A stretch of DNA of 64,000 nucleotides, from the NCBI RefSeq assembly GCF_030010235.1, contig NZ_JASCRS010000001.1, forward strand, positions 620,001-684,000, written 5' to 3'. Numbering within the stretch: position 1 is the stretch's first letter; each line of letters begins with the position of its first letter. A program made the translations under genes and the position numbers. Positions 49,548 through 52,580 of this stretch are shown in pieces. A model generated the notes under the pieces. That model did not search any database. It worked only from the letters and a program-made list of their open reading frames with translations, and was not told the DNA's origin. Source of the DNA: Leucobacter sp. UT-8R-CII-1-4 (lineage in GTDB: Bacteria; Actinomycetota; Actinomycetes; Actinomycetales; Microbacteriaceae).

Positions 49548-51965
49548 GTGACCGAGACGCATGCAGCTGCCACCGAACCCCGCCCCGATACCGTTGCCGA
49601 CGCAATCGCGACGCCAGAACGAGAGCAGCCCTTTGCTGCTCTTGGTCTGAAGGCTGACGAATATGCCAAGATTCGTGAGATTCTTGGCCGCCGCCCAACC
49701 TCGGGCGAGCTCGCTATGTATTCCGTGATGTGGAGCGAACACTGCTCCTACAAGTCTTCAAAGATTTACCTGCGCCAGTTCGGCAAGAAGGTAAACGACA
49801 AGATGAAAGAGCGCCTGCTCGTTGGAATGGGCGAGAACGCGGGCGTCATCGACGTCGGCGAGGGCTGGGCGGTGACCTTTAAGGTCGAGAGCCACAACCA
49901 CCCCTCATACATCGAGCCTTTCCAGGGTGCTGCAACCGGTGTTGGCGGCATCATCCGCGACATCATCTCAATGGGTGCCCGTCCAGTTGCCGTGATGGAT
50001 CAGCTGCGCTTCGGTGCAATTGACGACCCAGACACCGCACGCGTGGTGCACGGCGTTGTTGCCGGCATCTCGTCATATGCGAACTGCCTCGGCCTGCCAA
50101 ACATCGGCGGCGAGACCGTCTTCGACAAGGTCTACCAGGCAAACCCACTCGTGAACGCACTCGGTGTTGGCGTGCTGCGCCACGAAGACCTGCACACCGC
50201 AAACGCTTCTGGCCTTGGCAACAAGGTGGTGCTCTTCGGTGCCCGCACCGGTGGCGATGGCATCGGCGGCGCGTCGATCCTCGCGTCCGACAGCTTCGAC
50301 GAGGGTGGCCCAACTAAGCGCCCAGCCGTCCAGGTCGGCGACCCCTTCGCGGAAAAGGTACTCATCGAGTGCTGCCTCGAACTGTTCCAGGGCGAGCTGG
50401 TTGAGGGCATTCAGGATCTCGGCGCTGCCGGTATCTCGTGCGCAACCAGTGAGCTGGCTGCAAACGGCGACGGTGGCATGTTCATCGAGCTCGATAGCGT
50501 GCTGCTTCGCGATCCTTCGCTCACCGCAGAAGAGATTCTGATGAGCGAAAGCCAGGAGCGCATGATGGCTATCGTGCAGCCATCGAAGCTTGACGAGTTC
50601 CTCGCGGTCACCGCGAAGTGGGATGTTGAGACAAGCGTGCTCGGCGAAGTTACCGACACAAACCGCCTGATCATCAACTGGCGCGGCGAAGAGATCGTGA
50701 ATGTCGATCCATCGACCGTTGCTGTTGACGGCCCTGTTTACGAGCGCCCCGTTGCTTACCCAAGCTGGATCGACTCGCTGCAAGCAGACTCGGTAAACGC
50801 TGCGGGTCTCGCGCGCAACAACAGCGGCGAGGATCTTCGCGCCCAGTTGCTCGCCGTCGCATCGTCACCAAACCAGGCATCAGCAGAGTGGATCACCAAC
50901 CAGTACGACTACTACGTGCTGGGTAACACCGCACTGTCGTTCCCAGATGCAGCGGGCATGATTCGTGTTTCGGAAGAGACCGGCCTCGGCGTCGCGATCT
51001 CGACCGACGCAAATGGCCGCTACTGCCAGCTCGATCCGTATGCCGGCGCGCAGCTCGCACTCGCTGAGGCATACCGCAACGTCGCCACCACTGGTGCCGT
51101 GCCGACCGCTGTCACCGACTGCCTGAACTTCGGTAGCCCCGAGAACCCAGAAGTCATGTGGCAGTTCTCGAAGGCTGTTGAGGGCCTGTCAGACGCTTGC
51201 CTATCACTTGAGGTGCCAGTGACCGGCGGTAACGTCTCGTTCTACAATCAGACCGGTGATACCCCGATTCACCCAACTCCAGTTGTTGGTGTGCTCGGCA
51301 TTATTGACGACGTAGCTCGTCGTGTGCCATCGGGCTGGCAGGATCAGGGCGAGCACCTTTACCTACTCGGCACCACCCGCGACGAGCTCGACGGCTCTGC
51401 CTGGGCTGAGGCAGTGCACGATCACCTCGGTGGTCTGCCACCTCAGGTTTCGCTCGACGACGAACGCGCGCTCGCTGAGCTGCTGCACGGCGCATCGCAA
51501 AGCGGTCTGCTTTCGGCTGCCGTTGACCTTGGCGAGGGTGGCCTGGCTCAGGCGCTCACCGATGGTGTGCTGCGTTTCGGTGTTGGCGCTCGCGTTTGGA
51601 TCGATGAAATCATGTCGCGTGACGGCGTTGACGCGGTTGCTGCACTCTTCTCGGAGTCGCAGGGGCGCGTGCTCGTCGCTGTGCCGCACGAGGAGGACGT
51701 GAAGTTCCGTGGCCTTTGCGAGGGTCGCGACTTCCCAGTGCTGCGAATCGGTGTCACCGACGTGCCTGGCCCAGACGCTGCCCTTGAGGTTCAGGACCGC
51801 TTCACGCTGCCGCTTGCCGAGCTGCGTGGTGCTTCACGTGAAACTCTCCCTGCTCGCTTTGGCGATGTTATTGAGCCAGACTTCAACACGGCACTGCCAA
51901 ACGCAGCAGCTGCCCGTTTTGAGCGCTCAATGCAGCAGCCGGCAGGCCCAGGCATCTCAGAGTAA
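49548..51965 (+). CDS. purL: FGAM synthetase large subunit, small-type PurL
   Basis: 805 residues, the short form that works with separate PurS and PurQ. Recognisable segments: [88 protein letters not shown], and [14 protein letters not shown]. It catalyses the ATP-dependent amidation of FGAR. The GTG has TAGGCT six bases upstream. Separated from purS-purQ by two minus-strand genes, so it must rely on its own promoter. Confidence 0.97.
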
Positions 51966-51991: not shown

Positions 51992-52036
51992 ACACCCCCG
52001 CTGGGCCTTGCACAGGCATTGCCCAGGCGGGGGTGT
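51992..52036 (+). terminator. Terminator of purL
   Basis: 10+5-bp stem with one bulge (ACACCCCCGC, then TGGGC) and a 14-base loop, followed by CATGCTTTT. An outer pair, ACAGCCCGC (about 51980) and GCGGGCTGT (about 52048), can enclose it. Confidence 0.75.
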
Positions 52037-52066
52037 CATGCTTTTGGCGGGCTGTGAATCAAGCCC

Positions 52067-52105
52067 CGGGACGATAGACAAGTACCCCGTGTGCGACAAG
52101 ACTTG
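52067..52105 (+). promoter_or_regulatory. Guanidine-III riboswitch
   Basis: Matches the guanidine-III (ykkC-III) fold. P1: CGGG 52067-52070 with CCCG 52086-52089. ACGAT follows the 5' P1 strand. Pseudoknot P2: CAAG 52079-52082, immediately before TAC, with CTTG 52102-52105, immediately after the conserved GACAAGA (52095-52101). The order ACGA, P2 strand, TAC, P1 strand, GACAAGA, P2 strand is that of the characterised Thermobifida example. The gene downstream is an SMR exporter, the usual partner. P2 is only four pairs. CTTGC (52102-52106) can instead pair with GCAAG (52114-52118), looping out AAAGGA of the Shine-Dalgarno sequence. Confidence 0.82.
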
Positions 52106-52120
52106 CCAAAGGAGCAAGCC

Positions 52121-52459
52121 ATGTGGGCATGGATTATTCTGATCGTTTCAGGCATCTTCGAGGCCGTTTGGGCGACCGCTCTCGGTAAGTCCGAGGGCTT
52201 CACAAAGCTTTGGCCGACCGTCACCTTCTTTGGTGCACTCATCATCAGCATGGGCGGCCTGGCCTGGGCCCTGCGTGATATTCCGACAGGCACCGGCTAC
52301 GCGGTCTGGGTCGCCGTTGGCGCCTCGCTCGCAGTGATCTACGGCATGGTGACCGGCGCCGAGTCTGCGAGCCTGATTAAGGTGCTCTTACTGATCGGCA
52401 TTGTTGGCTGTGTGATCGGCCTCAAGATCGTGAGCGACCACGAGGCAGTGATGAGCTAA
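52121..52459 (+). CDS. gdx: Guanidinium exporter, SMR family
   Basis: 112 residues, four membrane helices, with the essential Glu in IVSGIFEAVWATALGKSEGF (Glu14). The SugE/Gdx branch signature at the start and the guanidine-III riboswitch just upstream both indicate a Gdx-type guanidinium/proton antiporter, working as an antiparallel dimer. The ATG at 52121 has AAAGGAG six bases upstream; the longer upstream frame runs through the riboswitch and is rejected. Convergent with tmk across the inverted repeat at 52498-52558. Confidence 0.92.
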   Translation: MWAWIILIVSGIFEAVWATALGKSEGFTKLWPTVTFFGALIISMGGLAWALRDIPTGTGYAVWVAVGASLAVIYGMVTGAESASLIKVLLLIGIVGCVIGLKIVSDHEAVMS

Positions 52460-52497
52460 TTGTTGGTGGCGATCATTTAGCCTTTGACGCCAGGTTT

Positions 52498-52558
52498 ACG
52501 CAAGAAGCGCGTTTCTGCGGAAGAATTTATAGATTCCGTAGAAACGCGCTTCTTGCGT
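52498..52558. repeat. Long inverted repeat between gdx and tmk
   Basis: 25-bp stem (52498-52522 with 52534-52558), one G-U pair, 11-base loop; GTTTA/TAAAC extend it after a two-base bulge. No T-run on either strand. It lies between convergent genes. Confidence 0.8.
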
Positions 52559-52580
52559 GTAAACGATGTCTCAGACTGGT

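Follow-up and report, generated by a model that had tools for sequence, protein, structure and literature searches.

Guanidine-III riboswitches form a known class of RNA switch that responds to guanidine, a toxic compound. The discovery, validation, and binding pocket of this class are treated in PMC2864571, PMC7266159, and PMC7736828, the validation reportedly being the work of Sherlock and Breaker (2017). The fold is described in PMC5696562, the accessible sections of which give a pocket of C6, G7, and G17, report that C6 and G7 (in ACGA) and G17 contact the ligand in the Thermobifida fusca structure, and propose that the ligand exposes the ribosome-binding site. PMC12186494 states that translational ON control had been predicted for guanidine-III and that the class also shields mRNA from RNase E. 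Translational ON control of guanidine-III has already been published in these two papers (PMC5696562, PMC12186494), where, in the portions available, translational switching was deduced from closeness to the ribosome-binding site; a start-codon helix in a fixed register is not described in those portions.

We analyzed a window of 64,000 nucleotides from Leucobacter sp. UT-8R-CII-1-4 (family Microbacteriaceae), in which a single gene for a small SMR exporter is located at 52121–52459, with purL (49548–51965) on its 5' side and tmk and topA downstream on the other strand. The exporter gene and the parts of the aptamer ahead of it are as follows.

52049–52066, + strand: P0, a 5-pair hairpin (52049–52053/52062–52066) that abuts P1, from pairing and also folded in prediction
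52067–52070, + strand: P1 5' strand CGGG, pairing with 52086–52089, from sequence and covariation
52071–52074, + strand: ACGA, equivalent to A5–A8 of the T. fusca structure, invariant in the family alignment
52075–52078, + strand: third (triplex) strand UAGA, from alignment with the T. fusca structure
52079–52083, + strand: P2 5' strand CAAGU, in which G82 is G17, from pairing and covariation
52086–52089, + strand: P1 3' strand CCCG, from sequence and covariation
52095–52101, + strand: conserved core strand GACAAGA (G29–A35), from sequence and alignment
52101–52105, + strand: P2 3' strand ACUUG (A35–G39 in this leader), from pairing and covariation
52121–52459, + strand: gdx, a Gdx-type SMR exporter gene of 112 amino acids, from homology searches and residue comparison

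The preliminary description had placed all core elements of the guanidine-III fold in this leader, and they were borne out base by base. The conserved core (ACGA, GUACC, and GACAAGA) is complete; CAAG (52079–52082) is followed by TAC (52083–52085), CTTG lies at 52102–52105, and the ATG is at 52121. The ligand-contact residues C6, G7, and G17 correspond to C52072, G52073, and G52082 by alignment to the structure described in the available part of PMC5696562. P0 had been overlooked in that description. Of 61 representatives, 60 have a P0 of at least four contiguous pairs (the mean is 6.1, compared with 3.6 when shuffled), and the gap between P0 and P1 is absent in 50 of the 60 representatives that bear it. 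Compared with the T. fusca RNA (5NWQ, RF01763; PMC5696562, available sections), ACGA, GUACC, GACAAGA, and a four-pair P1 are common to both, P2 starts with U18-A35 and G17-C36 in both, and both precede an exporter gene and are proposed to act as ON switches by making the ribosome-binding site accessible. The window RNA differs in its P2, which has 5 contiguous pairs and more A-U, whereas that of T. fusca has 7, and in its Rfam score, which falls under the gathering score.

On the 3' side of the gene, where gdx and tmk converge, the space between them contains a long near-perfect inverted repeat (52498–52558) that probably terminates transcription in both directions; elsewhere in the genome there is a diverged copy (77%; G000:C1:1122130-1122186). 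Rfam matches to mir-722 and mir-277 at 52482–52572 were rejected, being far under their own gathering scores, and are attributable to this repeat.

The window protein matched Pfam PF00893 with 60.1 bits (cut-off 23.7), and its best NCBIfam family was SugE, with 83.7 bits against an equivalog cut-off of 126. The nearest solved relative was 6wk5, the Gdx-Clo structure (E 9.7e-19), whereas the best EmrE entry reached 3.9e-8. Residues E13, W16, S42, Y59, and W62 of Gdx-Clo are all kept. According to the available text of PMC7695847, W16 separates Gdx from Qac, and E13, W16, S42, and W62 are important. On these comparisons, the window protein is a Gdx-like SMR protein and a predicted guanidinium exporter. 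At the search level used, one SMR gene was found in the window's species and nine relatives, and two adjacent SMR genes in the other 29 positive genomes, where the pair is perhaps a two-subunit exporter.

The match of the Rfam guanidine-III model (RF01763) to 52046–52110 scored 33.5 bits, with an E of 4.4e-5 when 901 bases were compared with 4227 families, and in the organism's own genome this was the sole match (E 3.5e-5). The score is significant, albeit under the RF01763 gathering score of 36, which is a threshold for automatic annotation and not a structural feature; a default Rfam scan of the window returns nothing. Part of the shortfall may arise from the family model laying the 5' hairpin out of register, with mismatches. 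An independent covariance model built from 45 aptamers, all from outside the genus, found 52067–52107 with 34.0 bits (E 2.7e-8), the next-best place in the genome scoring 18.1 bits. Of the 54 genomes of the genus, 39 contain a match to this model that scores 30.8 bits or higher, and the next match is at 23.8 bits. Relatives of the exporter (E up to 1e-15) were likewise found in 39 of the 54, and comparison of the two lists showed that the aptamer-positive and exporter-positive genomes are identical.

Covariation was assessed in 53 representative leaders whose exporters are less than 80% alike (52 canonical and one with GACAGGAC). All four P1 pairs formed in 53/53, with compensatory change in three of the four, and in P2, where 92.5% of cells were paired, compensatory change was seen at three of the five pairs. 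Over the nine pairs of P1 and P2, 38 cells were changed on both sides, compared with 9.3 in shuffles. Pair 15-38 is C-G in 48/53 and A-U in 5/53, the A-U of the window representing one compensatory change; pair 16-37 is A-U in 48, C-G in 4, and unpaired in 1 of the 53 leaders. The pairing of CTTG with CAAG, for which a check in related leaders had been suggested, covaries at both of these positions. Taken together, RF01763, the independent model, covariation, and the exporter association give good support to the earlier placement of a guanidine-III aptamer before gdx, and the RNA is well supported as a guanidine-III (ykkC-III) riboswitch ahead of a Gdx-type exporter, unremarkable within that known class.

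The P2 helix had been presented as four pairs long and among the smallest of its kind. P2 of the window has five pairs when U83-A101 is counted (U18-A35 in the crystal structure), and 4 or 5 contiguous pairs were found in 141/142 distinct canonical leaders of the bacterial family, a total that takes in 4 leaders with GACAGGAC. The helix is not exceptional within the family and is short only against other families, in whose 30 highest-scoring leaders P2 ranges from 4 to 10 pairs. The short P2 is, on these alignments, a trait of the bacterial family and not a record. Family leaders were drawn from the listed RF01763 matches (30 loci and 119 more), beyond which further matches exist. A core scan of 221 loci returned 7 without the core: L018, L028, L212, and L213 look like chance matches and were rejected, and L168, L198, and L199, family leaders before SMR genes, have GAAAAGAC instead of GACAAGAC. 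The leader counts leave out an extra chance match in L048, as well as L037, L124, L146, L161, and L194, which lack the SMR motif.

The 3' part of the aptamer can also pair with the sequence around the start codon, and the following features are involved.

52102–52106, + strand: 5' arm of the alternative hairpin, CUUGC, from the fold and the family register
52109–52114, + strand: Shine-Dalgarno-like AAGGAG, of which 52109–52113 lies within the alternative-hairpin loop; motif read from the sequence, start by rule
52114–52118, + strand: 3' arm of the alternative hairpin, GCAAG, from the fold and the family register; the fold extends via C120 and U122–U124 across the start codon

CTTGC and GCAAG enclose the loop CAAAGGA (52107–52113). 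In the minimum-energy fold of the window, the CUUGC/GCAAG hairpin continues via G100-C120 and then A96-C97-A98/U122-G123-U124, holding the start codon. Among 163 distinct leaders, the start codon, picked by rule, lies a median of 19 nt (range 15–48) beyond C36. The register recurring in the family is G29-C(+5), A30-U(+4), C31-G(+3), A32-U(+2), a mismatch at A33, G34-C(-1), A35-U(-2), and C36-G(-3), onward into P2. It forms 425 of 624 pairs in the 52 canonical representatives, compared with 184–255 in six slid registers, positions +2 and +3 being fixed by the start codon itself; the window forms 9 of 12 register pairs. GTC stands directly 5' of the start in 31/52 canonical representatives, 6/21 variant leaders, and 0/57 control starts (other genes in 19 loci and the window). 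Outside the family, the same register was still the best, with a smaller margin (129 versus 57–109 pairs), in the 18 of 30 leaders in which the start was placed.

In 115/138 canonical leaders, own pairing energy was better than the mean obtained with shuffled segments, and the mean own pairing energy of the 138 was better than all 2000 swapped sets; leader by leader, own pairing beat the mean swap in only 80/163. The swap test is uninformative in the window's sub-group because its 9 leaders have one P2 strand in common, and kinship in these comparative tests was handled only by thinning at 80% exporter identity. The start codon was less open than with shuffled flanks in 42/52 leaders. The local alternative hairpin itself folds no better than shuffles (z -0.18, 81/200 as good). 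Locking the aptamer strands changed the predicted Shine-Dalgarno accessibility from 0.60 to 0.64, with a gain in 55 and a loss in 37 of 137 leaders (the test covered 137/138 canonical and 20/21 variant leaders). Predicted start-codon accessibility in the family rose from 0.37 to 0.62 on locking, compared with 0.49 to 0.69 with shuffled flanks. In the locked window leader, the predicted accessibility of the Shine-Dalgarno stretch rises from 0.56 to 0.70, and that of the start codon drops from 0.36 to 0.15, a loss attributable to possible CCAUG/CAUGG pairing. For the alternative helix with its start-codon clamp in a fixed register, the comparative evidence is good and the thermodynamic evidence poor. 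The preliminary description had proposed translational ON control through mutually exclusive pairings; the family register and the other comparative results on the alternative helix speak for this proposal, and the hairpin energy and the mixed accessibilities speak against it. Neither the start-codon register nor the short core described below was reported in the titles and abstract openings searched.

Computation showed a covarying aptamer that goes together with the exporter, and a recurring register of the alternative helix. From these we infer that the guanidine-III riboswitch probably controls translation of the Gdx-type exporter and turns it ON with guanidinium, the ligand binding, the switch, its direction, and the form that prevails in the cell being part of that reading. 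When guanidinium is absent, the aptamer's 3' part (ACAAGACUUGC) would pair with the start-codon stretch GCAAGCC-AUG-U; the Shine-Dalgarno would lie in a loop and the AUG in a stem, and little exporter would be produced. Guanidinium would stabilize the P1/P2 pseudoknot, which would draw that strand into the pocket and P2 and leave the ribosome-binding site free. Pseudoknot switches of the SAM-II and preQ1-II type are OFF switches, in which the pseudoknot strand competes with or contains the ribosome-binding-site pairing. In this leader, the strand would likewise be tied to ribosome-binding-site pairing, but the pseudoknot should free the site.

Richards and Belasco reportedly found that guanidine-III protects mRNA from RNase E. 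That system involves the same aptamer class at an mRNA 5' end, with decay as the controlled step there and translation here. The gdx aptamer might instead act mainly on mRNA stability, with a bound pseudoknot at the extreme 5' end blocking an RNase E-like nuclease, and the start-codon hairpin might be incidental. P0 and the aptamer do lie near the likely 5' end, and the available part of PMC12186494 states that such protection has been reported for guanidine-III. We consider this explanation unlikely, since stability control has no need of the start-codon register that recurs across the family; the two mechanisms are also compatible with each other. That the aptamer is decaying, with guanidinium binding lost and the exporter expressed constitutively, is very improbable: its 33.5 bits do fall below the gathering score of 36, and the listed family matches reach at least 44 bits, but the conserved core is complete, P0, P1, and P2 are intact and covarying, the exporter is intact, and 9/9 distinct leaders of the window's sub-group retain the 5-pair P2. 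Transcriptional control is hardly credible, as a pairing that excludes the aptamer is indeed found in terminator switches and a pattern scan marks 52119–52132 as terminator-like (0.9 expected in shuffles), but no U run follows the alternative hairpin, which spans the ribosome-binding site and start codon, and its candidacy as a terminator was rejected on these grounds. For the window, the translational switch is plausible but unproven.

In 23 of the 39 switch-bearing genomes of the genus, the core strand is GACGAC, two bases shorter than GACAAGAC, at the following loci.

Short-core loci in the genus: L016, L017, L019, L020, L022–L027, L029, L030, L073, L075, L076, L084, L086–L088, L090, L211, L214, L215

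P1 and P2 are intact in these leaders (21 distinct leaders), and the genomes carry two SMR genes side by side. Anti-start pairing in the variant leaders was not above shuffles (-4.49 versus -4.49). A wider short-core scan examined 71 stretches, of which 14 are from Leucobacter, each with a 5-pair P2 and an exporter motif. Outside the genus, the short core precedes an SMR gene in Streptomyces sp. HNM0574 (L263), Agrococcus casei (L287), and Microbacterium sp. LCT-H2 (L288), as well as in Pseudonocardia oceani (L264) if P2, to which the script assigned 3 pairs, is read in a register chosen by eye. L226 and L272 are short-core-like and near a sequence end, and L233 proved to be canonical; the other 50 stretches, in which P2 or the exporter motif or both are missing, resemble chance matches. 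The short core may have arisen more than once, because the same form precedes SMR genes in other actinobacterial genera.

Upstream of the aptamer, a possible operator lies within a hairpin that trails purL.

51992–52036, + strand: probable purL terminator, a strong hairpin (fold -38.2 kcal/mol, z -5.14) with CATGCTTTT after it
52009–52026, + strand: tandem 11-bp element TGCACAG-GCAT-TGCCCAG (TGCACAGGCATTGCCCAG), possible operator, from motif recurrence upstream of leaders
52037–52042, + strand: weak -10 box candidate CATGCT, by eye, from its position before P0

The hairpin at 51992–52036 encloses the tandem element, and little space is left for a separate gdx promoter. TANNNT ends 7–8 nt 5' of P0 in 26/60 representatives; none is present at the -10 candidate place in the window, and a promoter scan found none there either. 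The pattern TGNNCA-N5-TGNNCA occurs upstream of 63/142 canonical leaders (shuffled 0.1) and 8/21 variant leaders (shuffled 0.005), most often 41–44 nt 5' of P1, and TGNNCA repeats with a spacing other than 5 were found in 0–2 leaders. A stricter tandem form was present in 12/52 and 3/8 representatives. In its own genome, TGCNCAGNNNNTGCNCAG was found once, at 52009–52026; with one mismatch allowed, the window gave a single match, 0.87 being expected by chance. A further 15 genomes, most of them selected for carrying the element in their leader, contained 11 tandem sites, 8 of which immediately precede a guanidine-III aptamer. What speaks for the element is its location and not its number, because a reversed control pattern gave 9 matches in the same genomes, compared with 11. 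The element was not seen at 33 aptamer places, 30 of them from other families. These results suggest that the element is possibly an operator of a transcription factor, located in a promoter.

A joint reading of these observations can be offered tentatively, and we would not be surprised to see it fail. In this bacterial family, the pocket strand (GACA-A-GACUG) would double as an antisense of the start-codon region, opposite CAGUC-A-UGUC in a single fixed register, TGNNCA-N5-TGNNCA would be the operator of a dedicated factor, and the GACGAC form, without the clamp, in most switch-bearing Leucobacter may differ in ligand or regulation.

An RF01763 match over the gathering score was obtained in 10 of 54 genomes of the genus, compared with the aptamer in 39. 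Default annotation undercounts guanidine-III in Leucobacter because 29 of the 39 aptamers, true members of the class, sit under that score. The window leader offers a concrete set of pairs for testing translational switching by guanidine-III, and its upstream element allows the question of whether gdx has its own transcription factor. The short-core relatives allow the question of whether two core bases are dispensable for the pocket. If the joint reading is true, the same nucleotides would form either the ligand pocket or the start-codon clamp.
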